The notes under the pieces were generated by a model, which saw only the letters and a list, made by a program, of their open reading frames with translations, ran no database searches and was not told the origin of the DNA. Positions 1-12,417 of a DNA stretch of 54,278 bases are shown one piece after another. The stretch is from an uncultured Christensenella sp. (GTDB lineage Bacteria > Bacillota > Clostridia > Christensenellales > Pumilibacteraceae). The stretch covers positions 1-54,278 of the forward strand of contig CATLHE010000012.1 of the NCBI GenBank assembly GCA_949948895.1, given 5' to 3'. Made by a program: the position numbers and the translations under genes. Positions within the stretch are counted from its first letter, which is position 1. Each line of letters starts with the position of its first letter.

Positions 1-74
1 AAGAAAAGCGTCATAATGCACGAAAAGGGTAAATAACGAAAAAACACCCTAAAAACGGCATTTGAGCATAGAAA

Positions 75-120
75 AAGACACACGCAGCGGAGATTTTAAC
101 GCTCCTTTTGCGTGTGTCTT
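75..120 (-). terminator. Leftward intrinsic terminator, probably of the tRNA-Ala transcript
   Basis: A 12-bp perfect inverted repeat (75-86 with 109-120) with a short inner GGAG/CTCC stem is followed on the minus strand by a run of five T. It lies just beyond the duplicated tRNA 3' end. I infer that it was the terminator of the leftward tRNA-Ala gene before the element inserted between the tRNA and this hairpin. Confidence 0.6.
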
Positions 121-122
121 GG

Positions 123-145
123 TGGTGGAGATAGTGGGACTCGAA
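123..145. repeat. attL-like duplicate of the tRNA-Ala 3' end
   Basis: These 23 bp are identical, in the same orientation, to 5703-5725, which is the 3' end of the tRNA-Ala gene including its encoded CCA. Phage integrases commonly target tRNA 3' ends and leave such a direct repeat at the distal boundary. The adjacent minus-strand integrase fragment fits this. The 130 bp between this site and the integrase stop hold nothing else I recognise. Confidence 0.82.
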
Positions 146-275
146 GCCGTGCGAGACGGTTAAAACGGGTAGAAATGGGTTATTTTCGGCCTAAAATTGG
201 TAATTTCGGCCATTGGATGGCCGATTTTGGAATAGTTTATTTACCAATTTTGGGGGCAAATTGGGGGCAAACAGG

Positions 276-452
276 CTAATAGTCAAGTTTTTGCCCTTCT
301 TTAATCAGATATTCGTCGGGTAAATCGGTATAAGTATTAGCTAGTTCGCCCGAACTGTGCCCTATAAATTCATCTCGCGCTACCGGTGCGACGCCACACA
401 TTTGGCACCGGGTGTAGAATGTAGTTCGTAAATCGTAAAGTTTGTGTGCATC
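276..452 (-). pseudogene. Tyrosine recombinase (phage integrase), C-terminal fragment
   Basis: The leftward reading frame encodes the end of a phage-type tyrosine integrase. It holds a box II-like HKLYDLRTTF segment with the conserved Arg, a GHSS motif, and ANTYTDL with the likely catalytic Tyr about 15 residues from the end. The usual HxxR histidine position is Tyr here, although a His lies three residues upstream. Everything N-terminal (core-binding domain, box I Arg, Lys) is missing. The frame stays open to about 515, but beyond about 452 it only reads the complement of the DGR variable repeat. The fragment sits beside the attL-like repeat, the expected place for the element's own integrase. 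It is almost certainly inactive. Confidence 0.8.
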
Positions 453-558
453 CTGTTCCAATGGTAACGGCAATTTCTGCTGTGTGTGGTCGAGCGGTGG
501 CGCGAACGGTTGCATTACATACTTTTCGCGGGCGGTGGCGCCGGCTTTCGCCGTCTAA
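439..558 (+). pseudogene. DGR target (variable) protein, C-terminal fragment
   Basis: The frame that is collinear with the template repeat reads ...GNGNFCCVWSSGGA...SRAVAPAFAV and stops at 556-558. This resembles the C-termini of DGR variable proteins with a C-type-lectin or sulfatase-modifying-factor-like fold (established for the class). An in-frame stop at 436-438 and the integrase remnant just upstream show that the N-terminal body of the protein is absent. The template still encodes a WWSRSP-type segment upstream of its hypervariable codons, and this has no counterpart here, so the variable repeat itself is cut at about 453. No start codon or RBS is available, so it is not expected to be expressed as a protein. 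Confidence 0.72.
454..551 (+). repeat. DGR variable repeat (VR), 5'-truncated
   Basis: This aligns without gaps to 1181-1278 (offset 727). I count 15 mismatches (positions 455, 458, 463, 464, 469, 470, 508, 509, 511, 512, 515, 520, 523, 524, 545). Every one lies opposite an adenine in the downstream copy: 8 A-to-G, 5 A-to-T and 2 A-to-C. The 3' part, a GC-rich block ending in gcggtggcgccgg, is invariant and would be the IMH (initiation of mutagenic homing) site. Adenine-only substitution is the diagnostic signature of mutagenic retrohoming. Confidence 0.93.
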
Positions 559-578
559 TCTCAGGATCCAAGCAATCA

Positions 579-596
579 CGCCCGCGGAAGCGGGCG
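579..596 (+). other. Hairpin with GGAA tetraloop downstream of VR
   Basis: A 7-bp GC stem (CGCCCGC/GCGGGCG) closes a GGAA loop 20 bp after the stop of the variable reading frame. In the Bordetella phage BPP-1 DGR, a GC-rich hairpin or cruciform with a GRNA-type tetraloop just after VR promotes homing. The loop here fits that pattern. That it has the same role is inference from position and sequence. Confidence 0.6.
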
Positions 597-624
597 CAAA
601 GGGATGAAAAGCCCCCGCGCCTTC

Positions 625-641
625 CGCCCGCGAAGCGGGCG
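625..641 (+). other. Second hairpin with the same stem, GAA loop
   Basis: This repeats the 7-bp stem of the 579-596 hairpin with a 3-nt GAA loop, 28 bp further on and just before avd. Stem and counter-stem sequences are identical, so the two hairpins could also exchange strands. It may be a duplicated homing element or a weak transcription block; there is no clear T run. Confidence 0.45.
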
Positions 642-660
642 AAAATTTTCAGGAAAAATT

Positions 661-1116
661 ATGTCAGTATTAAAATCGAACCGATCGGAAAGCAAAGCGG
701 AATTTATCAACACTGCGAACGAGATCTACACACGGACGATCACGTTTTTGACGCGATTATCGGCAAGATATTCGCGTCTGCTGGCGGCGGACGTTGCAAG
801 GCTCGCTTCCGAAGTGGTTGACAACGCCGAAAAGGCAAATAGTATATTCCCATCGGATTCCGTTCGGCGGGAACTGCGCGAGCGGCATCTGCTCGAAGCC
901 CGTGCTTCGCTTATGGCTCTCGACGTTAAGCTGTCGCTGTGCTATCAGATTATGATCCTGAACCCCGCAGGGTGTTTTGAAACTTCGTCGGGGAAGGCAG
1001 TCGAAAAGTCCGATGCGCTTAAACGCCTCGATAAGATGGCGCAGGCACTCGGGGATCTTATCGACAAAGAGAACACGCTCCTGACAGGCGTGTTAAAATC
1101 GGACAAAAAAGAGTAA
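661..1116 (+). CDS. avd: Avd-like DGR accessory protein (four-helix bundle)
   Basis: This 151-residue, helix-rich, charged protein lies between VR and TR, the normal position of avd. In characterised DGRs, Avd forms a basic pentameric barrel that binds the reverse transcriptase and template RNA and is needed for cDNA synthesis. The C-terminal pattern (KRLDKMAQALGDLIDKEN) and overall length fit the Avd/four-helix-bundle family. The ATG at 661 is chosen because an AGGAAA lies upstream and the protein then begins MSVLKSNRS. The longer in-frame ATG at 604 would read through the second hairpin as a Pro/Arg-rich leader and is less likely. The identification rests on position, size and pattern. Confidence 0.78.
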   Translation: MSVLKSNRSESKAEFINTANEIYTRTITFLTRLSARYSRLLAADVARLASEVVDNAEKANSIFPSDSVRRELRERHLLEARASLMALDVKLSLCYQIMILNPAGCFETSSGKAVEKSDALKRLDKMAQALGDLIDKENTLLTGVLKSDKKE

Positions 1117-1499
1117 GCTCTTTTCTGTGGGTGCATCTCTGTATATTCGCTGCTCGGCTGTGTGGTGGTCGCGCTCCCCCTATTACAATAATAACAACAA
1201 TTTCTGCTGTGTGTGGTCGAGCGGTGGCGCGAACAATAACAATACAAACAATTCGCGGGCGGTGGCGCCGGATTTCGCATTCTCCCTGAGAAGGTAGAAA
1301 GTCGAAAAAAGTAACTTTATGTGAACCGACTGATGCGAAAGGAGAGATGATTTCCCGGAAGAAATTCCAAAACTGTTCTTTGACGATCGTGCACGGACGC
1401 TTCTTGCATGGCGGGCTATGTGCGTAACCCGTTTCATGTGCACGATCAAAGCGGCTTAGAACGCACCCTACACCACAGCCGCGCGAGGTAACGAAAATT
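1117..1499 (+). ncRNA. DGR template RNA region (TR plus 3' spacer)
   Basis: The 383 bp between avd and the RT gene have no convincing protein gene and contain the template repeat (1181-1278) followed by about 220 nt of spacer. In BPP-1 the functional template RNA extends past TR into the spacer, which Avd/RT need. Here the spacer contains a perfect 10-bp long-range inverted repeat (1385-1394 with 1438-1447, GATCGTGCAC) enclosing 43 nt, which supports a folded RNA. RNA ends are unknown. Confidence 0.65.
1181..1278 (+). repeat. DGR template repeat (TR)
   Basis: This is the partner of the variable repeat at 454-551. Its reading frame has two asparagine clusters (AAT/AAC codons at 1187-1201 and 1232-1252), typical of TRs because adenine mutagenesis of AAY reaches many residues but no stop codon. 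The same frame continues upstream of 1181 with IRCSAVWWSRSP, showing that the original homology with the target gene was longer than the 98 bp now shared. The orientation is the same as avd and RT. Confidence 0.93.
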
Positions 1500-2693
1500 A
1501 TGACAAGCGACGAACGGCACGAAGCAAGGTACCAACGACGCAAAGCAAAACGTGAGCAACGCCGAAAAGACCGCGCCCGAGCGGTCGGCGGTTTAGCTCG
1601 CGTTTTTACCTACAACGCGATGTTTAAGGCAGGGCGAAAATGTTGCAACGGTGTGCGCTGGAAGAATAGCGTCCAACGCTTCGAGATGCACCTATTTTCG
1701 CAAACTGCAAAATGCCGCAGACTGCTGTTCGAGAAAAAATGGAAGCCCGGGAAGTACGTTGTTTTCCCGTTGAATGAGCGAGGCAAAAAGCGCATTATAA
1801 GCGCGCCGAGAATACAGGATCGTCAAGTACATAAAACCCTGAATCAGCGCGCTTTGATGCCGTTATATACGCCCGACATGATTAGCCACAACGGCGCCAA
1901 TCTTCCCGGCAAAGGCTTCCACTTTTCACTTCACGCGCTCGCAGACGAACTTAGGTGGCACTTCCGCCACTATGGAAGAGAAGGCTGGATCATTTTGACC
2001 GACTTTGAAAAATTCTTCCCCTCTGCACCGCATTCGGCGATCTATCAACGACACGAACGAATCCTACTGCATCCCAACATTCGGGATCTTGCCGACCGTT
2101 TTCTTGAACCCGGCGGCAAGGGACTGCCGCTCGGCGTTGAGATCAGTCAAATGGAGATGGTTGCGCTTCCGTCCCCGGTTGATAATTTTCTGAAATGTCA
2201 ACTTCATTTGAAAGGCGCCGGGCATCACATGGACGACTATGCGATACTCGTTCCGCCAGACGTTGATCCGAAAGACGTGCTCGCGCAATTCGTTAAAAAG
2301 GCGGAGAGCATCGGGCTGAAGGTCAGTCTCGCGAAAACGCGTATCCAGCCACTCACGAAGCCCTTCAAGTTCTGCAAGGCAAAGTTCCAGCTTACCGAAA
2401 CCGGTCGCGTTGTCATTCACGGCAATCGTCAAAGCGTTTACAGGTTCCGCAGAAAGCTGAAGGCGTTCAAAAGAAAAATCGAGAACAAAGAGAAAACACT
2501 CGAAGATCTATACACGCTCACACAGAGCTCTCTGGCATACTTCGAGAACTACGATGACCACAACCGCGTCTTGTCGTTGCGGCGGTTATTCTACAAGCTG
2601 TTCGGCTTTTCAGCCGAGAAAATCGAAAATTTTAAGGAGGACATCCAGCCATGCAATATGTGGTTCACAGACGACTACGTTGTAAGAGCTTAA
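1500..2693 (+). CDS. DGR-type reverse transcriptase
   Basis: This 397-residue RT copies the TR RNA into adenine-mutagenised cDNA for transfer to VR. Visible RT blocks in order: a basic N-terminus; RKxI-type KKRIISAPRIQDRQVH (about 96-112); motif A ILTDFEKFFPS with Asp168; GLPLGVEISQ with Ser216-Gln217, matching the SQ-type motif 4 of DGR RTs; HHMDDYAIL with the catalytic DD at 245-246; GLKVSLAKT and a FCKAKF motif 7. There is no maturase or endonuclease domain, as expected for a DGR rather than a group II intron. A GAGGT lies 8-12 bp before the ATG. Its 3' end overlaps the next gene by 43 bp. All catalytic motifs look intact. Confidence 0.93.
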   Translation: MTSDERHEARYQRRKAKREQRRKDRARAVGGLARVFTYNAMFKAGRKCCNGVRWKNSVQRFEMHLFSQTAKCRRLLFEKKWKPGKYVVFPLNERGKKRIISAPRIQDRQVHKTLNQRALMPLYTPDMISHNGANLPGKGFHFSLHALADELRWHFRHYGREGWIILTDFEKFFPSAPHSAIYQRHERILLHPNIRDLADRFLEPGGKGLPLGVEISQMEMVALPSPVDNFLKCQLHLKGAGHHMDDYAILVPPDVDPKDVLAQFVKKAESIGLKVSLAKTRIQPLTKPFKFCKAKFQLTETGRVVIHGNRQSVYRFRRKLKAFKRKIENKEKTLEDLYTLTQSSLAYFENYDDHNRVLSLRRLFYKLFGFSAEKIENFKEDIQPCNMWFTDDYVVRA

Positions 2694-3061
2694 GCGGCGA
2701 CGTCAATCTTCCGTTCGGAACGCTCTGCACCCTGAACGGCGAGATCCTCGAAAAAGACGGCAAACCGCTCTTTTTCGTAATGAGCGAAAACGCCCACCAA
2801 TACTTGGCGCGAAACGACGACGGGCACGGAATCGAGCGCGGGCGACTTACACAGGAGATCCAGAGCCGACTCCGACCGAAACCCAATCCGAAAGACGAAG
2901 CGAAACGCCTCGAAGCGTGGAACCGAATCTGGGACGACGAAAAATTGAAGCCTTACAAAATGCGTGAGCATCCCGACCACTGGTTATGGAATCACGCATT
3001 TTTTAATGCGGACATTGCGACGTTGCAATATATTCTCAAAGTCATCGAAGGAGGTGCATGA
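2651..3061 (+). CDS. Conserved phage late-region protein, function unknown
   Basis: The 136-residue soluble protein begins MQYVVHRRLRCKSLSG and contains SENAHQYLARNDDGxG and WLWNHAFFNA segments. I recognise this general pattern from tail/lysis regions of Firmicutes phages, but no function is known to me. A strong AAGGAGG lies 10 bp before the ATG, inside the end of the RT gene, and the 3' end overlaps the next ATG by 4 bp. This suggests translational coupling across the late-gene run. The original role was probably in the virion or lysis module. Confidence 0.75.
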   Translation: MQYVVHRRLRCKSLSGDVNLPFGTLCTLNGEILEKDGKPLFFVMSENAHQYLARNDDGHGIERGRLTQEIQSRLRPKPNPKDEAKRLEAWNRIWDDEKLKPYKMREHPDHWLWNHAFFNADIATLQYILKVIEGGA

Positions 3062-3414
3062 TGTTCAAAATCATTACGACCGGCGGGACGGAGCTCGGAA
3101 TGACCGACTCCGTCCGTTTTATTAAAGTGAGTTCCGAAGGCTCTTTTATCGAATCGACGAAAGACGAAGCCGTCGGCATAGCTTTCAAAGGCTCCCCCTA
3201 CAATCTGGCAGGGCAGAACGCTATCGACGGCGCCGAGACGGTTCTCATTGTCGAAACGGACGGCGGCGGGGAAGTCGCGGAGCTGCGCGTGAAAACCGCA
3301 CAGCAAGCCGAAGAACTCGCGCAATCGGATGAGACGGCGATCGCCCTTTATGAGCGTTTAGCGCAGCAGGACGAAGCCCTGATCGAGATCTACGAACAAA
3401 TTATAGGAGGTTAA
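3058..3414 (+). CDS. Small phage protein, unknown
   Basis: The 118-residue protein has a beta-rich N-terminal half (TGGTELGMTDSVRFIKVS...) and a C-terminal helix rich in Glu, Ala and Gln (residues about 80-118) that could form a coiled coil. The ATG overlaps the previous stop as ATGA, with GGAGG 4-8 bp upstream. Similar short proteins sit near the end of structural modules in Firmicutes prophages. No catalytic motif is visible. It is inferred to be co-transcribed with its neighbours. Confidence 0.65.
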   Translation: MMFKIITTGGTELGMTDSVRFIKVSSEGSFIESTKDEAVGIAFKGSPYNLAGQNAIDGAETVLIVETDGGGEVAELRVKTAQQAEELAQSDETAIALYERLAQQDEALIEIYEQIIGG

Positions 3415-3417
3415 AAG

Positions 3418-3603
3418 ATGGCAGTCAAAACTATCGCCTACAGTTACTGGCGAAGCATTCAGCGCGGCGCCCGCACTTTTGCGAGCATACCCGCCGAACT
3501 GAAGCCCGACGTTAAGACGATCGCCCGCGACGACGTTGCCGCTGGCATACTTACCGCCGAGCAATACGAGACGTTCATCGGCGAGCCGTTTACGGTTGAA
3601 TAA
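3418..3603 (+). CDS. Small phage protein with XkdX-like C-terminal motif
   Basis: The 61-residue protein has an RBS (AGGAGG) 6 bp before the ATG and begins 3 bp after the previous stop. The C-terminal ILTAEQYETFIGEPF resembles the ITAEQYxxIxG ending of XkdX-type phage tail proteins, but the N-terminus (YSYWRSIQRGARTFASIP) does not match what I know of that family. It may be an adaptor or remnant. Function unknown. Confidence 0.55.
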   Translation: MAVKTIAYSYWRSIQRGARTFASIPAELKPDVKTIARDDVAAGILTAEQYETFIGEPFTVE

Positions 3604-3615
3604 ATCGGAGGCTCA

Positions 3616-3822
3616 ATGAATACGGAACTCATCGCAAAGCTCTGCGCTCTGGTGGATCTCCAGAACGCAATTATCAGGGACATGGCAATCAGGCTTAACG
3701 AGCGCGACGACGTGGATCTTTACGAGCGGATCGCTGCCGCTCAAACGACCTATAACGCAACGCTCGGAACCGAATTGCCGCCCGCAGTTCAAATACTCAA
3801 AAAAGGAGAAGTAAACACATGA
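3616..3822 (+). CDS. Small phage hypothetical protein
   Basis: The 68-residue protein is largely helical and acidic at the centre (NERDDVDLYERI). An AATCGGAGG RBS precedes the ATG, and its last codons overlap the start of the following membrane protein by 4 bp (ATGA). I do not recognise a family. Tight spacing on both sides argues that it is a real member of the late-gene operon. Confidence 0.55.
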   Translation: MNTELIAKLCALVDLQNAIIRDMAIRLNERDDVDLYERIAAAQTTYNATLGTELPPAVQILKKGEVNT

Positions 3823-4226
3823 CGCTAACAGTCTGGCAGTTCGCTCTCGCAATCGGACTGCCGTCAGCATTCACGGGCGGGCTTGTCGGCCTGTTCTTTT
3901 GGAGACTACAACGCAAGATCGAAAAGCGCGACGCGGAGGCGGCTGCAGAAGCAGCACGCCGCGAAGAACGCGAAGCCCAGCGCGAAGAAGCCCGCGAAAA
4001 AAACGAACTCAACACGATCCGCGCCATCGGCGCATCTATCGCGCTCGGGGAAGCGACAGCCCGCGCCGTTCAGCGCATTCCAGACGCGCATTGTAACGGC
4101 GATATGCACGCCGCGCTCGATTATGCCCAGCGCGTAAAGCACGAGTTGAAGGACTTCCTGACGGAGCAGGGCGTTCAGGCTATCTATGCCGATCCGCCTG
4201 TTGCTCGGAAGAAAAGCAAAAAATAA
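3819..4226 (+). CDS. Phage membrane-anchored coiled-coil protein
   Basis: The 135-residue protein has one N-terminal membrane segment (residues about 5-27). A long charged helix follows, rich in Ala, Glu and Arg (about 30-70), then a conserved-looking ASIALGEATARAVQR and YAQRVKHELKDFLTEQG region. Proteins of this layout are common directly upstream of holin-like genes in Firmicutes prophages. A role in lysis or as a spanin-like or holin-associated factor is inference. RBS AAAGGAG, 4-bp overlap with the previous gene, 12 bp before the next. Confidence 0.65.
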   Translation: MTLTVWQFALAIGLPSAFTGGLVGLFFWRLQRKIEKRDAEAAAEAARREEREAQREEAREKNELNTIRAIGASIALGEATARAVQRIPDAHCNGDMHAALDYAQRVKHELKDFLTEQGVQAIYADPPVARKKSKK

Positions 4227-4238
4227 GGAGACAATCAC

Positions 4239-4709
4239 ATGGACGAATTGATCATCAACTTCATCAAAACCTACGGCTTGCCGCTCGGGCTCATCGCTCT
4301 GGGCGGCGTCGTTTTACTCTGCATCCTCAAATACGGGAATGTGTTCAGGAAGCTCGCCGAAAAATGGCGCCACTTCTTATATCTCACGATCACGATCGGC
4401 TTCTCGCTGATCGCGTCGGCGATCTATCTGGCGGCATCGGGGCAGTTCTCCGCGGAATACTTCTTCGCGGTCGGACTTGCTATTTTTACGCTTGATCAAG
4501 CCATTTACGCAATTATTAAGGCAACGCCCGCGGGCGACCTTGTAAGCGGCTTATTTGATAAACTCAAGGCGGCGATCAAGAAAAAGACCAGCGCAACGGC
4601 GGCGGAACTGCCTGTCGTCGAACAAAATGACGAAAATGCCGAAACGACCGCCCAGAACGGCGCCACACCGCCTACGGACGGCGGCAACGCACAAACACCC
4701 AATAAATAA
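4239..4709 (+). CDS. Phage holin-like membrane protein
   Basis: The 156-residue protein has three hydrophobic segments (residues about 10-32, 43-65 and 72-92), then a cytosolic basic stretch and a hydrophilic, Ala/Glu/Thr-rich tail. It is the last gene of the late-type operon and is followed by a strong terminator. Size, topology and position suggest a holin or other lysis-module membrane protein. No endolysin gene follows, so lysis would be incomplete, in line with a deleted prophage. The long polar tail is not typical of small holins, so holin remains tentative. Confidence 0.55.
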   Translation: MDELIINFIKTYGLPLGLIALGGVVLLCILKYGNVFRKLAEKWRHFLYLTITIGFSLIASAIYLAASGQFSAEYFFAVGLAIFTLDQAIYAIIKATPAGDLVSGLFDKLKAAIKKKTSATAAELPVVEQNDENAETTAQNGATPPTDGGNAQTPNK

Positions 4710-4712
4710 ACA

Positions 4713-4755
4713 AAGCCCGCAGACGGAAATACACGCCGTCCTGCGGGCTTTTTCT
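4713..4755 (+). terminator. Terminator of the phage late-type operon
   Basis: A GC-rich hairpin (AAGCCCGCAGACGG with its complement around a short AT loop) is followed by TTTTTCTTTTT. It separates the DGR/late genes from the HicAB module. Confidence 0.9.
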
Positions 4756-4800
4756 TTTTGCAAAAAAATTAAAAAAATCGCAATTTTCTTGCGAAAAAGT

Positions 4801-4830
4801 GTTGACTTTCGGTCAACAAAGTAGTATAAT
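4801..4830 (+). promoter_or_regulatory. hicAB promoter with palindromic operator over the -35
   Basis: TTGACT (4802-4807) and TATAAT (4825-4830) are separated by 17 bp. The -35 lies inside a perfect 6-bp palindrome GTTGAC-N5-GTCAAC (4801-4817). HicB antitoxins with a C-terminal DNA-binding domain autorepress their operon, so this palindrome is the likely HicB (or HicAB) operator. That assignment is inference. Confidence 0.75.
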
Positions 4831-4857
4831 AAGAATGTAAACAGGAGGTGGTAACAG

Positions 4858-5049
4858 ATGCCAATGACACCGAAAGAAATGGTCAAATACTTAAAGGCGA
4901 ACGGCTTCGAAGAAGTTCGACAACCGGGAACCTCGCACCTGAGACTGCGAAACCCACAAACGGGAAAACAGACAACGGTGCCAATGCACAGCAAGGAGCT
5001 GAAAAAAGGAACCGAACAAGCGATACTCAAGCAGGCAGGGCTGAAATAA
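4858..5049 (+). CDS. hicA: HicA-family mRNA interferase toxin
   Basis: The 63-residue protein has the dsRBD-like HicA fold signature: MTPKEMVKYLKANGFEEVRQPGTSHLRLRN with the catalytic His in GTSHLRL (residue 28 by count), then a VPMHSKELKKGT segment. HicA cleaves mRNA and slows growth until neutralised by HicB. AGGAGG lies 10-15 bp before the ATG. It sits between the late operon and the right end of the element, a usual place for an addiction module that stabilises a prophage even after it decays. Confidence 0.92.
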   Translation: MPMTPKEMVKYLKANGFEEVRQPGTSHLRLRNPQTGKQTTVPMHSKELKKGTEQAILKQAGLK

Positions 5050-5087
5050 GCCCTACCTGCACAAAATAAAAATAAGGAGATAAAAAC

Positions 5088-5564
5088 ATGAAAAATATAA
5101 TTTACCCTGCAGTCTTTCACAAAGCCGAAGAAGGTGGTTACTGGGTGGAATTTCCTGATCTGCCCGGCTGTGTAACCGAAGCCGATACACTCGAGGAAGC
5201 TGTTGTTATGGCGGGCGATGCGCTGTTTGTATGGTTTGACGATGAACAGCAAGAGCAACCCGCCCCGAGCGCAGTCTCCGATATTAAAGTCGAAGGCGAC
5301 GATTTTGTGACTCTCGTAAAAGCTGAACCCTACGAAAGCGAGGACGCGGTAAAGTTCCGCGCGGCCGTGGAAGTCGAGAACGGGCTCGCGCAGCGCAACC
5401 TTAACAAAAATCAGGCGGCGCTCATCTTAGGCGTTGACCGCTCATACTTCACTTATATCATCAGCGGGAAGAAAACCCCTTCACCTGATATGGCGAAGCG
5501 CATCGGGCTCTTGCTCGGCTTCGACTGGCGTGTGTTCTATGCAGACGGCGCCACCGCTTACTAA
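5088..5564 (+). CDS. hicB: HicB-family antitoxin with C-terminal XRE-type helix-turn-helix
   Basis: The 158-residue protein begins with the HicB partial RNase-H-like fold (YPAVFHKAEEGGYWVEFPDLPGC...), binds and masks HicA, and ends with a helix-turn-helix (LNKNQAALILGVDRSYFTYIISGK, about residues 106-130). The HTH would bind the palindrome at 4801-4817. It starts 38 bp after hicA with RBS AAGGAG. It is longer than minimal HicB proteins because of the HTH. A terminator follows. Confidence 0.92.
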   Translation: MKNIIYPAVFHKAEEGGYWVEFPDLPGCVTEADTLEEAVVMAGDALFVWFDDEQQEQPAPSAVSDIKVEGDDFVTLVKAEPYESEDAVKFRAAVEVENGLAQRNLNKNQAALILGVDRSYFTYIISGKKTPSPDMAKRIGLLLGFDWRVFYADGATAY

Positions 5565-5578
5565 ATCAACACAAAAGA

Positions 5579-5616
5579 AAAAGCCCTGCCGCTTCCGCGG
5601 TGGGGCTTTTCTTTTT
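5579..5616 (+). terminator. hicAB terminator
   Basis: The hairpin AAAAGCCCTGCCGC / GCGGTGGGGCTTTT with a TTCC loop is followed by CTTTTT. The 85 bp from here to the tRNA hold nothing recognisable. Confidence 0.85.
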
Positions 5617-5702
5617 GGCGCCTTACGGCGTCGGTAATGGTATGGATGCAACGAACCCGGTACTGTACACAAACAGCCCCCAGTGTTCGACTGCGCCCCC
5701 AA

Positions 5703-5725
5703 TGGTGGAGATAGTGGGACTCGAA
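5703..5725. repeat. attR-like site within tRNA-Ala
   Basis: This is a direct repeat of 123-145. Together the two copies bound a 5.58-kb insert (first base of one copy to first base of the other). An integrase fragment lies at one border and the hicAB addiction module at the other, as in tRNA-integrated prophages. Confidence 0.8.
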
Positions 5726-5778
5726 CCCATGACCTATGCGTTGCGAACGCATCGCTCTACCAACTGAGCTATATCCCC
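5703..5778 (-). tRNA. tRNA-Ala (anticodon CGC), element integration target
   Basis: A full cloverleaf can be drawn on the minus strand: 7-bp acceptor with the G3-U70 wobble that identifies alanine tRNAs, D-arm GCTC/GAGC, anticodon loop TTCGCAA (CGC, reading GCG), T-loop TTCGAGT and encoded CCA. The 3' 23 bp (5703-5725) are repeated at 123-145, so the gene remains intact at the right border of the integrated element. Confidence 0.95.
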
Positions 5779-5813
5779 GAAGTTGTTATGCCGTTATCCT
5801 CACGGCAAGACAT

Positions 5814-5842
5814 AGTGTAACATATAAAAATTTATTTGTAAA
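5814..5842 (-). promoter_or_regulatory. tRNA-Ala promoter
   Basis: On the minus strand, TTTACA (5842-5837) and TACACT (5819-5814) are separated by 17 bp, about 35 bp before the tRNA 5' end. Confidence 0.65.
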
Positions 5843-5939
5843 GTAAATTCTGCGGATATTTTTGCCAATGTGTAATTTTTCGCAGCCGTATTTATCGCGG
5901 CGGCTGAGGTTTTGCGCCCTGCTGTTTTATTTTCCGCTA

Positions 5940-5968
5940 TTGACATGCGCGCGAAAAAGCGGTATACT
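5940..5968 (+). promoter_or_regulatory. Promoter of the LytTR two-component genes
   Basis: TTGACA (5940-5945), 17 bp, TATACT (5963-5968). Transcription would begin near 5975. That is downstream of the ATG at 5862, so the regulator must start later, at TTG 6003. Confidence 0.8.
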
Positions 5969-6002
5969 ATTCGTATGTAACGATTATATCGGGGCGGCGG
6001 AA

Positions 6003-6731
6003 TTGAAAAACATAGCCATAGTCGAAGACGAAGACTCGGCGGCGGAAAAGCTCGTCGAGAGTATCAAGCGGTATCAGTCGGAATTCGACTGCGAGTTTAA
6101 TATCGTGCGTTTTCGCGACGCGGCGGATTTTCTCGACGGCTATAAAGCGGTTTACGCCGTCGTGTTCATGGATATTCAGATGCCAAGGTCAAACGGCATG
6201 GACGCGGCGTTCGAGCTCCGAAAGATGGATAAGTCCGTATCGCTCATATTTATCACCAACCTCATGCAGTACGCGCAAAAGGGCTACGAAGTGGATGCGG
6301 TGGGGTATATACTCAAACCCTTTACGTACTACGATTTTTCGTTGAAGTTTCGCAAGGCGCTCGATAGATACGTGATGTCCGAGGACCGCGACATAGCGCT
6401 CGACATTGCGGGCGGCATGGTCAGGATATCGTGCGACAGGCTCATGTATGTGGAGATACTCAAGCATAGACTTTACTATCATTTGGTGGACGACGTTATA
6501 CAAACTACGGGCGTGCTTTCCGCGGTGGAAAAGCAGTTGGAGAGTCGCGGGTTTTTGCGTTGCAATAACTGCTATCTCGTCAACCCGCAGTTTGTCGTGA
6601 GCGTTAAGGGTTCGACGGTGACCGTCGGCAACGACGAGCTTGCCATAAGTCGACCGCGACGGGCGGCGTTTCTGACCAACTTAGCGCAGTGGTTTGCATC
6701 GGGGCGTTCGGACGGAGCGGGCAAAAAATGA
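6003..6731 (+). CDS. LytTR-family response regulator (AgrA-like)
   Basis: The 242-residue protein has a receiver domain (about 1-125; acidic pocket VEDED, phospho-acceptor Asp57 in FMDIQMP, Lys in ILKPF) and a LytTR DNA-binding domain (about 140-235; YVEILKHRLYYHL, SRGFLRCNNCYLVN). Regulators of this class bind direct repeats at target promoters. The open frame extends upstream to an ATG at 5862, but a good promoter at 5940-5968 lies after that ATG, so TTG 6003 is preferred; it begins with the receiver core KNIAIVEDE. The stop overlaps the kinase start (ATGA). The neighbouring beta-glucanase genes may be its regulon, by proximity only. Confidence 0.9.
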   Translation: MKNIAIVEDEDSAAEKLVESIKRYQSEFDCEFNIVRFRDAADFLDGYKAVYAVVFMDIQMPRSNGMDAAFELRKMDKSVSLIFITNLMQYAQKGYEVDAVGYILKPFTYYDFSLKFRKALDRYVMSEDRDIALDIAGGMVRISCDRLMYVEILKHRLYYHLVDDVIQTTGVLSAVEKQLESRGFLRCNNCYLVNPQFVVSVKGSTVTVGNDELAISRPRRAAFLTNLAQWFASGRSDGAGKK

Positions 6732-8104
6732 CGGCGGGCGAACTGTTTACAAACTACGGCATGGTAATGATCGAATTTCTGTTCGAGCTTTACGTGTTTT
6801 TGTTTATGCTTGCGTCAAAGCTCAATCGCAAGCGCAGGTTTTGGCTGAGAACGGTCGGGTCTACGGCGGCGGTGCTCGCGGCGTCCATCGGCGTCGCCGC
6901 GTTTTATACCGCTTTCGGCGAAACGACTTGGGGCAGAGTGCTTGTGTATATCGTGCTTTTCGGCATGGTGTTCGCGCAAGGTCTTTTTATGTTCGGAGAA
7001 AACAAACAGACCGTATTGTTCTGTTCGGCAGCGGCGTACGCCGTACAAAACCTCGTTTACAACGTTTATCTTTTACAGTATTTTTTGGGTAAGCTCATAG
7101 GCATATACGACTTCGGCTCAGGCGCTTTGGGCGTATTCTTATTCCGACTCATGTACTATGCGGTGTTCGGTGCGCTGGCGACGGCGGCATGGTTTATCGG
7201 GCTTAAAAGAATGAGCCGCAAGCTCCCGATAGAACGGCTCGACTACGGCATATTCATTGTCGCCGTGTTCATACTCGTCGTGTCGGTCGTGCTGTGTTCC
7301 GTAGAAGACATTTATTTTACGCGCGCGGGCATCGACATCAATCAGCCGCGCGTCGAGGCTGACGCGCTTTTTGCGCTGAGAACGGCGAGCATAGTCATGA
7401 ACGCAGTTTGTTGCATAGCGATACTGCTTATAATGTATAAAACGCTCGAACAGCGCGGATTGCAGCGCGACGTCGAACAGCTCCGCCACGCGATACGCCA
7501 GAGCGAGCAGCAGTACCGCATAAGCAAAGACACCATCGACATGATCAATATCAAATGTCACGACATAAAATACAAACTCGACGCGGCGATAAAGGACGGC
7601 GCGTCGCCGGGTTCCGTCGCCGACCTCAGAAAATCGATAGCGATATACGACAGTAATATCGAAACGGGCAACAAGCTGTTGAACGTTCTGTTTACCGAAA
7701 AGAGCTTGTACTGCGAACAGCACGGCATTACGCTGTCGTGCATGATAGACGGTGCGCGGCTGTCGTTCATGGACGACGGCGATCTGTACTGTCTGTTCGG
7801 CAACATCGCGGACAACGCGCTCGAAGCCGTGACCAAACTTACCGAGCGCGAGCGCCGAGTCATAGACATAGTAGTAAGAGCCAAGGACGACATGGTCATC
7901 GTCTCCGCCGAAAACTTTTATATAGGCAATGCCGAACTGTCTGACGGCTTGCCCGTCACCACAAAGACGGACAAAAGCAACCACGGCTTCGGCATGGCGA
8001 GCATGCGCATGATAGTTCGCAAGTACGGTGGCGAAATGATAATCGACACCGACGGCGATATTTTCAAACTGACTATACTGTTTCCCGCGGCAAATCCGCG
8101 TTAA
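6728..8104 (+). CDS. GHKL sensor histidine kinase (AgrC/ComD-like)
   Basis: The 458-residue membrane sensor partners the LytTR regulator. About six transmembrane segments fill residues 10-220. A short coiled coil leads to the H-box CHDIKYKL with His278. A GHKL ATPase domain follows (N-box NIADNALEAV, G-box GFGMASMRMIVRKYGGEM). The lack of an extracellular domain suggests sensing within or at the membrane, as for peptide-sensing relatives; no signal-peptide gene is seen nearby. The start at ATG 6728 overlaps the regulator stop, replacing the longer frame from 6689 that would run through the regulator's 3' end. Confidence 0.9.
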   Translation: MTAGELFTNYGMVMIEFLFELYVFLFMLASKLNRKRRFWLRTVGSTAAVLAASIGVAAFYTAFGETTWGRVLVYIVLFGMVFAQGLFMFGENKQTVLFCSAAAYAVQNLVYNVYLLQYFLGKLIGIYDFGSGALGVFLFRLMYYAVFGALATAAWFIGLKRMSRKLPIERLDYGIFIVAVFILVVSVVLCSVEDIYFTRAGIDINQPRVEADALFALRTASIVMNAVCCIAILLIMYKTLEQRGLQRDVEQLRHAIRQSEQQYRISKDTIDMINIKCHDIKYKLDAAIKDGASPGSVADLRKSIAIYDSNIETGNKLLNVLFTEKSLYCEQHGITLSCMIDGARLSFMDDGDLYCLFGNIADNALEAVTKLTERERRVIDIVVRAKDDMVIVSAENFYIGNAELSDGLPVTTKTDKSNHGFGMASMRMIVRKYGGEMIIDTDGDIFKLTILFPAANPR

Positions 8105-8208: not shown

Positions 8209-9855
8209 ATGCGCTCTATGAAAAAGTTCGGGAAAATTGCGATATCACTCGCGTCGCTCATTGCGGCGAGCGCGTGTTTTTCCGCTTGCGGAACGCCCGA
8301 CGGCGACGGTAAGGACGAAATCCCCGAAAATCTCGGTTCTTATACCGGAATCAACAACAAGATAGCCGACTTTACAAAAGGCTTGCCGCACGACGTTTTT
8401 TACGTGCCGAACGGGTATAGCAACGGCGGCATGTTCGACTGCGATTGGAGCAGGGATAACGCCGTGTACGACGCGGACAGTCAATCGCTGCGCCTTAAAC
8501 TGACGAGCGGCGACAATAAAATATACGGCGCGGAATGTCAGACGCATGAGTCTTACGGCTACGGCTATTATTCCGTGCGCATGAAAGCGATAAAGCGCGA
8601 AGGCGTTGTTTCGTCGTTTTTTACATACACCAACCGTCCGCAGTGGGACGAGATAGATATAGAGTTCTTAGGCAAAGACACGACGAAAGTGCAGTTCAAT
8701 TATTTTACTAACGGCGTCGGCAAGCATGAAAAAGTCGTCGACCTCGGCTTTGACGCGTCCAAGGGCTTTCACGAGTACGGCTTTAAGTGGGAAGAGGACC
8801 AAATAACTTGGTACGTAGACGGCAAGGGCGTTTACCGCGCGACCGCAAACATCCCGTCGCACGACTCGAAAATAATGATGAACGTTTGGAACGGCAAGTC
8901 GGAAGGCGAAGGCAACGTAAAAAATTGGCTTGGCGTTTTTGACAAATCGGATTTTCCCGTTCCCGACGCAGAGTATAAATGGGTAAGCTATAAACCGCTG
9001 GAAGCTCAGGGCGGCGAAGATCCGGACCCGAATCCTACGCCCGATCCCGAACCGAAACCCGACCCGACACCGGACCCCGACCCCGATCCCGATCCCGAAC
9101 CGAAACCCGACCCGACGCCGGACCCCGACCCGACGCCGGACCCCGATCCCGATCCGGAACCCGAACCGAAACCCGATTACGGCAATTATACCGGCGTAAA
9201 CGACAAACTGGCGGATTTTACATACGGAAAGCGCGACGATCTGTTCGAGTACGCGCACGATTGGACTAACGGCGGCATGTTCGACTGCGTTTGGAGCAGA
9301 GACAACGTGGTGTACGACAGCGGCTCGCAGTCGCTTAGGTTGAAGATAACCGACGACAACGGCGTAAACAGGGCGGGCGAGTACCGCACTCAGCAAAAGT
9401 ACGGTTACGGATATTTTTCGGTGAACATGAAAGCGATAAAGCGCGACGGCGTTATAACTTCGCTGTTTACCTACACCGGTCCGAGCGACGGCACCGAGTG
9501 GCACGAGATAGATATAGAGATACTCGGCAACGATACCACCAAAGTGCAGTTCAACTATTTTACGAACGGCGTAGGCGGGCACGAGCATTTGTACGACTTG
9601 GGCTTTGACGCGTCCGAGGGCTTCCATGAGTACGGTTTCAAGTGGGAGCAAGACAAGATAACCTGGTACGTGGACGGAGTGGGCGTGTATTCCGCAACCA
9701 CGGATATCCCGTCGGTACCCGGCAAAATAATGATAAACGCCTGGCCCGGCAAGTCCGAAGGCGACGATAATGTCGTCGATTGGTCCGGTCGGTTCGACAG
9801 GGTATTCCCCGTGCCCGACGCCGAATACAAATGGATAGGGTATAAAGCTATCTAG
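8209..9855 (+). CDS. Lipoprotein with two GH16 beta-glucanase domains
   Basis: The 548-residue protein has a lipoprotein signal (hydrophobic 8-24, lipobox ending SAC at about 27). GH16 domain 1 spans about 40-265 with the catalytic EIDIE signature at about 148-152, then a Pro-Asp/Glu linker (about 266-324) and GH16 domain 2 (about 325-548) with a second EIDIE signature. GH16 enzymes of this lichenase type cleave beta-1,3-1,4 or beta-1,3 glucans. The domains are clearly related but differ by many residues, so they may differ in substrate. It would be anchored outside the cell. The start is 8209 or the ATG at 8218. It ends with TAG, showing that TAG is a normal stop here. Confidence 0.9.
   Translation: MRSMKKFGKIAISLASLIAASACFSACGTPDGDGKDEIPENLGSYTGINNKIADFTKGLPHDVFYVPNGYSNGGMFDCDWSRDNAVYDADSQSLRLKLTSGDNKIYGAECQTHESYGYGYYSVRMKAIKREGVVSSFFTYTNRPQWDEIDIEFLGKDTTKVQFNYFTNGVGKHEKVVDLGFDASKGFHEYGFKWEEDQITWYVDGKGVYRATANIPSHDSKIMMNVWNGKSEGEGNVKNWLGVFDKSDFPVPDAEYKWVSYKPLEAQGGEDPDPNPTPDPEPKPDPTPDPDPDPDPEPKPDPTPDPDPTPDPDPDPEPEPKPDYGNYTGVNDKLADFTYGKRDDLFEYAHDWTNGGMFDCVWSRDNVVYDSGSQSLRLKITDDNGVNRAGEYRTQQKYGYGYFSVNMKAIKRDGVITSLFTYTGPSDGTEWHEIDIEILGNDTTKVQFNYFTNGVGGHEHLYDLGFDASEGFHEYGFKWEQDKITWYVDGVGVYSATTDIPSVPGKIMINAWPGKSEGDDNVVDWSGRFDRVFPVPDAEYKWIGYKAI
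9027..9180 (+). repeat. Low-complexity Pro-Asp/Glu linker repeat
   Basis: Tandem GAYCCS-type codons encode a PEPKPDPTPDPDP-like unit about three times between the two GH16 domains. Such DNA is prone to slippage, so linker length may vary between strains without breaking frame when whole codon pairs are gained or lost. Confidence 0.8.
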
Positions 9856-9957
9856 TTTTTTCGGCGCGATAGTTTTGCGCCGAGAACGGAACGCATAAAA
9901 ACGGTTTAAACTCGCAAAAAGCGAGAAAACAATAAAATTCATATGGGAGAAAATGAT

Positions 9958-12417
9958 ATGAAAAACAAGAAAGTTGTGGGCGCGGTAGTCGCCTCGGCAT
10001 TGGCTTTTGCGCTTTGCGGCGGCGCGCTCGCGGGTTGCGGCAACGGCAAAGGCGACGGTAAGGAAAATCTTACCGACGAAACATTGAAAGCGACCAAAAT
10101 AGCCGATTACACGACGGGTTCGGCGGCGGATCGTTCGGCTGTTTTTCCGTCCACCGGTTTTGAAAACGGCGACGTTTTCAATACTTTCTGGAACGAAGAG
10201 AACGTATCGTTCGACAATAACATGGCGGAGCTTTCGCTTTCGCCCATGGAAGAGAAAGAGCAGGTATGGAATCCCGAGTACGATGCGGACGAGGCGGAGA
10301 GCAATCCTGACTACGACGTTCCCGAGATGAAGGACTGCCAAGCGAATTACTACGGCGGCGAGCTCCGCACGTCCAAATATTACGGTTACGGCGATTACGA
10401 AGTAAAAATGAAACCGTCAAGCGTTAAGGGTACTGCGAGCACGTTCTTCGTATGCACAGGTCCTTACGACGTCGATTACGAGACGGGCGAACCCAATAAG
10501 CACGACGAGATCGATATAGAGTTCCTCGGCTATGACACGACGTTCGTTCAGTTCAACTATTTCGTAGACGGAAAGGGCGAGCACGAATACAAATACAACC
10601 TCGGCTTTGACGCATCCAAAGATTTCCATACGTACGGCTTCCGTTGGACGAGCGAGTACATAGTATGGTTCGTAGACGGCAAACCCGTGCACAAAGTAAA
10701 AGCTTCGGCAAAAAATCCCATGCCCTCCACGGCAGGCAGGATACTCACCAACTACTGGACGGGTACCGAGCGTTCGGAAGCGTGGATGGGAAAATTCGAA
10801 GACGATTTCTCGGGCAAAGCGCAGTACGAGTATATAGCGACTTCGGCGGCGGCTCAGGACGATCCCACCGTCGCTCCGCCCGCCCCCCCCGTCGAGGCTC
10901 CCGAAGAAGGCTGGACGGGTATCGACGCATCGGGATTCAGCAAATACACCGAGCCTTATACCGTTTCGGCAACGGAGACCGAGATCAATATGTCTCATAC
11001 CGTTAAAGCGAGCGGATATTCTTGCAGCGGCATGGGGCTTGCGTCCAACTATTCCTGGATCAAGTTCAAAGTCAAAAACAATTCCGAAACGGACGAAGCG
11101 TATGTTCGCGTAGATATCAAAAGAGAGAATCCTTCCGCTTCGGGCATCATCGGTATCGATTCCGATTACGAAGGCGCGGAATATCTCAACGCGGACGGAG
11201 CGGCGCTTGTCAAGCTTGCGGCGGGCGATACCGCCGAAGTCGCTTGCAAGATAAGGTGCGAAAAGATCACGGTCGATCAATTGGTCGTATTCCTTAACTC
11301 CACCAACGGCGCGACGGCTACCGCGGGCGATATAACCATTTCCGATATACAAGGCATTACCGCCGAAGACGGCGAAGCTCCCGCACCCGTGGAAGAATCG
11401 AAAGTTCTTATCGGAACTGACGAAGTATCGTTTACCGGCGACGGATATACGGTTACGTCCTCGGACGACAAAAAGACCATGACGATTGCTTACGAAGATA
11501 TGACCGGTAACGCTTATAAAAACGTTTCGACTAACGTAGCCGACATTATCGGAGAAAATAACGTATTCAAATTCAAGATCGTCAATAACGGTTCGGCGAC
11601 CGCAAAGATCCGTATAGACATCGGTTGTCCCGTCGACGCGGTATATACGGGCGGCAATTACAGCAACCTTTCCGCCAAATACGAAGGCGACGTCGAGAGC
11701 TCGGGCAACGATTATCCGTACGGCGGCGGGGACTGGTTGCGCATTTCCGCAGGCGGTACCGTGACGGGTAAGATAGTGTTTAAGACGGGCGTCGGTTCGG
11801 ATAATATCAAGATCTACGTGGATTCCGCTCAGTATGACGACGATACCACGCATACTGGCAGCGTTGATATATCCGATATGAGCTTCGACACCGAAGAAAT
11901 AGAGACCGTAGACCCCGTTCTTCCCGAGGGCGAGGGCTGGACGGCGATTGATCTTGCCGGACTCAGCGCGTACGTTCCCGATGGCGGTGCAAACAAATTT
12001 AAGCACGAATCGGCGGCAAACGGCGTAAATATCAAGCACGATGAAAAACCCGTCGTAAGCTCCAACCTTAATCTTGCGCCCACATACGGCGAAAACAACG
12101 TCGTGCACATGAAGATCAAAAACAATCTCGACATAGCGGGGAAACTGCGCATCAACGTGCAAAGCGCGGCGGCGGGATATAAATGTGTGATCACGGGCGT
12201 GACCGTCGACGGAGCTCCGCTCGAGTTGTCCGATATCAGCGAGGACGAGTACAACGGCGTGACTATCGAGCTCGCCGCAAACGCCGAGATAGTGGTCGAG
12301 ATCACGATTAACGGCGGCGACAATCTCGCTTTCGGACTTAACAACATGGAAAGCGGCGCGGAAACGGGCGACGTTACCATAAGCGAAGTCGCTATGAAAG
12401 TTAAGGCGGCGGAATAA
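9958..12417 (+). CDS. GH16 lipoprotein with three C-terminal accessory modules
   Basis: The 819-residue secreted lipoprotein has lipobox LAGC (Cys at about 25). A GH16 domain (about 45-295) has EIDIEFLG at about 184 and the same FxVQFNYFVDGKGEHE stretch as the upstream protein. Three modules of about 150-175 residues follow, starting near 319, 483 and 661 and sharing a WTGID/LIGTD/WTAID opening and beta-sandwich character. They are probably glucan-binding or spacer modules, but I cannot assign a CBM family. GGGAGAA 4-10 bp before ATG 9958 decides the start over ATG 9943. It follows the tandem-GH16 gene by 100 bp. Confidence 0.88.
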   Translation: MKNKKVVGAVVASALAFALCGGALAGCGNGKGDGKENLTDETLKATKIADYTTGSAADRSAVFPSTGFENGDVFNTFWNEENVSFDNNMAELSLSPMEEKEQVWNPEYDADEAESNPDYDVPEMKDCQANYYGGELRTSKYYGYGDYEVKMKPSSVKGTASTFFVCTGPYDVDYETGEPNKHDEIDIEFLGYDTTFVQFNYFVDGKGEHEYKYNLGFDASKDFHTYGFRWTSEYIVWFVDGKPVHKVKASAKNPMPSTAGRILTNYWTGTERSEAWMGKFEDDFSGKAQYEYIATSAAAQDDPTVAPPAPPVEAPEEGWTGIDASGFSKYTEPYTVSATETEINMSHTVKASGYSCSGMGLASNYSWIKFKVKNNSETDEAYVRVDIKRENPSASGIIGIDSDYEGAEYLNADGAALVKLAAGDTAEVACKIRCEKITVDQLVVFLNSTNGATATAGDITISDIQGITAEDGEAPAPVEESKVLIGTDEVSFTGDGYTVTSSDDKKTMTIAYEDMTGNAYKNVSTNVADIIGENNVFKFKIVNNGSATAKIRIDIGCPVDAVYTGGNYSNLSAKYEGDVESSGNDYPYGGGDWLRISAGGTVTGKIVFKTGVGSDNIKIYVDSAQYDDDTTHTGSVDISDMSFDTEEIETVDPVLPEGEGWTAIDLAGLSAYVPDGGANKFKHESAANGVNIKHDEKPVVSSNLNLAPTYGENNVVHMKIKNNLDIAGKLRINVQSAAAGYKCVITGVTVDGAPLELSDISEDEYNGVTIELAANAEIVVEITINGGDNLAFGLNNMESGAETGDVTISEVAMKVKAAE

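Follow-up and report, generated by a model that had tools for sequence, protein, structure and literature searches.

A 54,278-nucleotide stretch of DNA from an uncultured Christensenella sp. (hereafter the window) carries a diversity-generating retroelement (DGR) that apparently lacks its target gene, and a large deletion has most probably beheaded that gene in a recent prophage, leaving a DGR that may still rewrite the gene-less stub. The evidence, drawn from comparison of sequences, consists of repeat differences confined to template adenines, open frames for a reverse transcriptase (RT) and an Avd-like protein that are under purifying selection, a target gene retained in a close phage, the truncation of the variable repeat (VR), and an integrase tail fused to the truncated end. 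The preliminary description of this DNA had recognized a genuine DGR, which our analysis bears out, and had missed its incompleteness: the VR is truncated at its 5′ end, no target gene is present, and an integrase tail lies upstream. If the junction is real, the locus represents a DGR caught after target loss, with a close phage still holding the target, and it would offer a natural test of homing at a 5′-truncated, non-coding VR and of the lifetime of the machinery without a target. It also carries a warning that detection of a template repeat (TR), a VR and an RT does not prove that a protein is diversified. The features of the locus are as follows (window coordinates, strand, description).

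123-151, minus: att-like repeat of 29 bp that copies the 3′ end of tRNA-Ala and shares 93% identity with 5703-5731
276-446, minus: last 56 aa and stop codon of a phage integrase (tyrosine-type), N-terminal part missing, identified by similarity to genome G004
447-451, no strand: junction between integrase tail and VR stub, with no clear microhomology by eye
452-551, plus: VR stub; the 5′ ~24 nt and the whole upstream target gene are absent
527-545, plus: GC-rich segment (527-544) resembling an IMH, then marker base C545 (A1272 in the TR), from comparison with relatives
556-558, plus: stop codon of the lost target gene (frame ...SRAVAPAFAV*), with the same ending in the target of phage contig L040
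579-596, plus: 7-bp GC-rich hairpin with a GGAA (GRNA) loop, downstream of the VR; folds as DNA
661-1116, plus: avd-like gene, 151 aa, predicted helical bundle (phrog_30516, phrog_3206, structure model)
1155-1278, plus: TR, AAY-rich; the part matched by the VR stub is 1179-1278
1297-1512, plus: RT-2 structured RNA (RF03077), full-length match, 145.3 bits against a gathering threshold of 40, spanning the TR-RT spacer
1500-2693, plus: DGR reverse transcriptase, 397 aa (SQ motif, HMDD box), from profile and structure-sequence matches
2651-4709, plus: phage genes of unknown function downstream of the RT, in the same order in phage contig L003
4858-5564, plus: HicA-HicB toxin-antitoxin pair, no coding difference from L003
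5623-5702, minus: 3′ coding tail of a phage serine integrase (...IGGAVEHWGLFVYSTGFVASIPLPTP*) at the attachment site; the same residues end the L003 integrase
5703-5778, minus: tRNA-Ala (CGC), integration site, intact; right end of the remnant

Repeats, Avd and reverse transcriptase

The prototype of this class of element is that of BPP-1, with its RT-Avd-TR-VR logic and adenine mutagenesis. In the window, the gap-free alignment of 454-551 (VR) with 1181-1278 (TR) that had been described previously is confirmed at an offset of 727, and the homology proves two bases longer (452-551 and 1179-1278). All 15 mismatches lie opposite TR adenines (8 A>G, 5 A>T and 2 A>C), as had been claimed, and none of the 72 non-adenine TR positions differs from the VR. 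Counted per TR base, 15 of 15 mismatches on 28 adenines of 98 positions correspond to a hypergeometric P of 2e-10; with base 545 dropped, the values are 14 of 14 on 27 adenines of 93 (P = 1.4e-9). When the VR is instead taken as the template, the mismatches are distributed among G (8), T (5) and C (1), and thus 1179-1278 is the template. The differences occupy codon positions 1 (6) and 2 (9) of an asparagine/tyrosine-rich frame and create no stop codon. The TR is rich in AAY, and the asparagine-rich template design that had been proposed is supported. The VR scaffold follows the TR of the window itself rather than that of L003, from which it differs at 10 of 73 non-adenine sites; 27 of 28 TR adenines are common to the window and L003. 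A search of the window's own genome with the TR (E up to 1) returned only the TR and the VR stub, and no second target.

The attribution of all 15 differences to hypermutation holds for 14 of them. A C at VR position 545 opposite an A at TR position 1272 is constant in seven of seven distinct VR/TR pairs of close relatives (L004, L005, L008, L009, L040 paired with L003, Pioen, and Dulem virus 34), and this fixed difference is therefore not a product of random hypermutation. Judged from these comparisons, the position, which lies just 3′ of the GC-rich repeat end, marks the boundary of the copied sequence. In BPP-1, the difference between IMH and IMH* marks the boundary in like manner. Downstream of the VR, the hairpin at 579-596 is matched in folding by 8 of 200 shuffled sequences. 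The same stem occurs in L040 with a GACA loop, and both GGAA and GACA fit the GRNA pattern. Comparable hairpins were found by scanning L040, L008 and L009, and the same scan revealed none of at least 6 bp in L004 or L005. The accessible part of one study sets out a rule for GRNA-loop hairpins and a distance range of 4-34 bp, both of which the window hairpin fits, and describes in BPP-1 the GC-rich IMH and 3′ GRNA-loop hairpin that the window shares (PMC3240598). The window contains an IMH-like end followed by a GRNA-loop hairpin, as is characteristic of DGRs.

The avd-like gene had been described as intact, and its frame is open; it encodes 151 aa, matches phrog_3206, and occupies the same place in relatives. 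The strongest match is to phrog_30516, a family of unknown function (8.5e-70). An Avd-type accessory gene is thus found, though it resembles phrog_3206, the family that bears the label 'Avd protein of DGR', only weakly (0.004). The model of the product is a helical bundle with a pLDDT of 84.6. No Pfam family matched the product, and its alignment found no sequence match among PDB chains up to E 1. The corresponding fold search yielded nothing at E 0.001 (best 2gsc, E 0.036), and none of the best 50 of 489 fold matches is described as Avd.

The RT likewise has an open frame containing the SQ motif and, in agreement with the MDD motif noted earlier, a catalytic HMDD box at 2226-2237 (residues 243-246). 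This box is also present in L003, whereas five relatives have YxDD (YMDD in four and YADD in L006). The protein matches Pfam RVT_1 (1.7e-8) and phrog_1423 (1.2e-66). Among PADLOC profiles of other RT classes, 13 families match, the best being a generic RT (2.8e-14), with RT_UG17 at 7e-9. Against solved structures, 8ub7 ranks first (E 1.9e-14), above group II intron and retron-type RTs (4e-4 for the group II intron RT, and 4e-4 or worse overall), and a seven-sequence profile gives 6e-17 for 8ub7 against 6e-8 in the same comparison. The database table entry for 8ub7 reads 'Reverse transcriptase', and we take it to be the BPP-1 DGR RT, to which the window RT is only distantly related; unlike BPP-1, the window has no target gene. 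An RT of the DGR clade is characterized by SQ together with a YxDD-type box; the window RT, with its SQ motif, the top rank of 8ub7 and a box reading HMDD, may belong to that clade. Relative to L003, dN/dS is 0.04 for avd (dS 0.33) and 0.06 for the RT (dS 0.30). On these values, both genes are under purifying selection relative to this close phage and were thus kept functional over that divergence, although the ratios mostly reflect the time before the deletion. The adenine-only mismatches, the Avd-like gene, the RT with its SQ motif, the template design, the IMH-like end and the hairpin all argue for a genuine DGR.

RT-2 RNA in the template-RT spacer

The spacer between TR and RT is spanned by a match to the RT-2 RNA. 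Eight of nine searched loci of relatives contain this RNA, which ends at the RT start each time; the ninth, L040, lies on a contig that ends before that region. The match occupies 1297-1512 in the window, 738-954 in L003 and 4636-4856 in L051, with further loci designated L071-L075. Among 391 genomes of the class, RT-2 was matched at E 1e-5 in six, the window's own genome included, and five of these matches exceed the cut-off; none was detected in 14 control genomes. In each of the other five genomes, an RT-like match follows downstream, and there is a repeat pair whose mismatches fall mostly at adenines (7/7, 14/14, 4/5, 12/12 and 8/10, in 70-nt stretches), the last of these being the genome whose match is below the cut-off. 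Altogether, 14 of 14 RT-2 loci (the window, eight relatives and five genomes) immediately precede an RT within a DGR context, and at 12 of them a TR/VR-like pair is present in the same stretch. The two loci that lack a pair of their own are L003, which pairs with L040, and L006, where the TR is recognized only by similarity to the window. This distribution suggests that RT-2 represents the spacer part of the DGR template transcript, which would supply a function for this Rfam family. In the part of the literature covered, we found no statement linking RT-2 RNA to DGRs; in the accessible portions of two papers, RF03077 is only named, in a table (PMC11701678), and the RT-motif paper is only cited (PMC8143477). 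Two observations were made in passing on related loci: L005 contains a match to a Type II hammerhead ribozyme at 12564-12652 (40.9 bits against a threshold of 37), and in the DGR of L075 (genome G409) a single TR is apparently accompanied by two VRs (4940, 5481 and 5994).

Relatives, the missing target and the prophage remnant

Two IMG/VR contigs provide the closest comparison. L003 (3300006131_000241) is 95.9% identical to window 562-5710, with avd, TR, RT and HicAB in the same order, and L040 (3300014964_000176), whose 268-bp overlap with L003 shows 100% identity, carries the target gene. L040 encodes Baseplate_J, Tail_P2_I and a target of 663 aa. The C-terminus of this target shows a resemblance to DUF6273 that falls short of the curated cut-off (E 0.0005), and its model has a pLDDT of 31.8, too low to be used. 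Together, these contigs differ from the window in retaining the target and phage genes, in the TR scaffold (10 of 73 non-adenine sites) and, for L003, in possessing a serine integrase. The L040 VR differs from the L003 TR at 17 of 115 positions, 15 of them at adenines (marker included). Seven further loci were scanned for repeat pairs. Two of these, L007 and L010, duplicated the results for L005 and L004. No VR/TR pair emerged from L006, where the stretch begins 1,249 bases ahead of the RT. In the four distinct cassettes, the adenine-site share of differences is 14/16 (L004), 15/15 (L005), 11/11 (L008) and 11/11 (L009), with P values of 1e-7 to 1e-10. The order avd, TR, RT is conserved in the relatives, and a target gene with the VR at its 3′ end is present in L040, L004, L005, L008 and Pioen, whereas the window retains only the stub. 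In L009, a target homologue at 4895-6906 is split over two frames near 6301-6430. Among viral contigs, a pattern built on the VR core had 0 matches and one built on the IMH had 2.

At greater distance, the Faecalibacterium phages Pioen (PP479940), Roos (PP479939) and Taranis (MG711467) are all 64% similar in DNA to window 658-1711. The Pioen gene order is baseplate J-like, hypothetical, target-like orf24, orf25, avd-like orf26, TR, RT-2 RNA and RT, and its Avd and RT are 69% and 52% identical to those of the window. According to the accessible part of a study of Roos and Pioen, their targets contain DUF6273 and reads vary at their VRs (PMC11792537). By these similarities, the window cassette is of the same kind as the DGRs of these three phages, which are complete, and its state is what is unusual: its target gene has gone, as has most of the phage.

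The truncation itself is sharp. The identity between the L040 VR and the L003 TR starts 24 nt further 5′ than the window VR, and in the relatives generally VR/TR identity begins well upstream of the point at which the window sequence changes abruptly, position 452. On the other side of the junction, the frame read from 446 down to 279 is 88% identical in amino acids to the last residues encoded by an open frame of 426 codons in G004, and nucleotide homology to that frame stops at window 446. In the G004 protein, Pfam recognizes the SAM-like and central domains of phage integrases; the 56-aa tail alone gives no meaningful Pfam match and is presumably tyrosine-type, in part by its motifs. A 5′-truncated VR, the absence of the target and an antisense integrase tail upstream thus describe a decapitated cassette within a prophage remnant. 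We found no like case of a target-less DGR in the part of the literature covered. The accessible portions of two papers describe truncated RTs and missing repeats near contig ends (PMC3521204, PMC8144416).

About 5.25 kb of phage is left in the window; Pioen and Dulem virus 34 (a circular record), at 51.9 and 45.0 kb, show roughly how large a full phage is. From 3418 onward the genes are almost the same as in L003, except orf4239 (18 differences, mostly near its end), and identity between window and L003 drops to 0.91 around 4612-4762. Much of the 3′ part is nearly identical, a sign that the phage may have been alive not long ago. Since dS for avd and RT is about 0.3 relative to L003 while the 3′ genes are near-identical, the remnant is mosaic relative to L003, and its history is not simple.

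The missing phage sequence was sought in the window's own assembly. L003 5140-10132 had no match in a search run without a positive control, and L040 1-5380 and L022 1134-14016, the latter being the remainder of the L003 contig, matched only CRISPR spacers (one and two matches, respectively, all exact, 36-37 nt long and inside the CRISPR array). The assembly is 94.5% complete and the window starts at a contig end, so that the assembly may lack phage parts or a further target, and a sibling phage with different genes could have been missed by the search. The array belongs to a Type I-C CRISPR-Cas locus (L043, G000:C13:44596-52323) with 105 exact repeats that extends up to near a contig end. Three of its 111 intervals match phage parts of L040/L003 that are absent from the window, exactly and preceded by CTT, CTT and CTC, and none of the 111 matches the retained remnant; five sets of shuffled spacers gave 0 matches. 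Two intervals, of 99 and 133 nt, probably represent joins that were not resolved. We considered CRISPR self-targeting as the cause of the deletion and rejected this split as evidence for it: with some 5 kb retained out of the 29 kb of phage sequence that is known, a 3:0 split would arise in roughly half of cases.

The serine-integrase tail at 5623-5702 favours an assignment of the left-hand piece to a second element in the same tRNA site. The repeat at 123-151 and the HicAB-integrase neighbourhood seen in L044 are compatible with a left-hand piece derived from the same prophage. In L003, the serine integrase frame (5065-6639) appears to cross its own attachment site, such that the last ~25 codons would stay at the tRNA after integration. 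Beside the same tRNA-Ala in genome G007 (L059) is a similar-looking tail (..IFVNGVAGFVAYQ*, translated for L059 only), and DNA similarity places a similar integrase tail beside the tRNA-Ala of G016 (L061). Integrase-tail frames of 113 and 44 codons also adjoin tRNA-Ala(CGC) in L031 (G006:C107) and L036 (G010:C10). These latter tails, apparently in the opposite orientation and in two genomes of the genus, apparently reflect a recurrent insertion site.

Origin and present state of the locus

From this configuration we infer past homing, a deletion event and its recency, and a possible present activity. A temperate tailed phage, kin of Pioen and Roos, would have integrated at the 3′ end of tRNA-Ala(CGC) with a DGR ordered target(VR), avd, TR, RT-2 RNA, RT. 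With Avd, RT and the TR/RT-2 RNA, cDNA mutated at adenines would have been produced and would have taken the place of the VR in a tail-fibre-like target. The remainder of the prophage would then have been lost in a later deletion, together with the body of the target gene and ~24 nt from the 5′ end of the VR, which left the stub joined to an integrase tail within the same attachment locus. Because the machinery, the IMH-like end and the hairpin remain, the element may still rewrite the ~100-nt stub, presumably less efficiently, with no protein being diversified. In BPP-1, deletion of the first 20 bp of the VR reduces homing, which still occurs, and upstream sequence is dispensable, according to the accessible part of the study (PMC3240598).

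Within this account of a real deletion, the cassette might be inert now, the RT or Avd being no longer active, which we regard as possible if somewhat doubtful. The loss of the target gene and the HMDD box in place of YxDD are in keeping with such decay; against it, both frames are open with low dN/dS relative to L003 (values that mostly predate the deletion), and HMDD is common to L003. Less probable is that the DGR is complete in the living cell and that an assembly or binning artefact joined the integrase tail to the VR, which we consider unlikely. The junction lies 452 bases from the contig end, the near-phage contigs break close by (L003 starts at window 562, just after the VR, and L040 ends at window 827, in avd), and the integrase tail was not found in the L003 contig, which carries a serine integrase. 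However, the two sides of the junction share no stretch, by eye, that would mislead an assembler, there is no N run in the window, the rest of the phage was not found elsewhere in the assembly, and the left piece carries a tRNA-Ala 3′ end and so fits the same locus.

Turning from whether a deletion occurred to how, it is very improbable that the DGR caused its own deletion, with the end of a TR-derived cDNA joining the integrase gene rather than the 5′ side of the VR. The junction falls inside the TR-matching region, and mutated adenines 455 and 458 are within a few bases of it, but an ordinary deletion after ordinary homing fits the stub equally well. Were a self-made deletion true, VRs would be especially prone to deletion, and DGRs could eliminate the very genes that they diversify. 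Finally, the chance that the repeats are an ordinary duplication diverged by mutation, beside a group II intron or retron RT, is negligible: RT profile matches are generic and include non-DGR classes, but every difference falls at a template adenine, the order of avd, TR and RT is kept in relatives, and 8ub7 outranks the intron and retron-type RTs. That ranking, with the absence of any intron or retron RNA family in window 1-6000 up to E 0.1, leads us to reject a group II intron or retron origin.

Beyond the remnant, the gene at 8209-9855 contains an internal duplication (8422-8994 and 9268-9846, 72% identical in DNA), and the next gene shares a shorter similarity with it at 10504-10682. The products of this region (8209-12417) are, by their look, presumably GH16-type secreted proteins.
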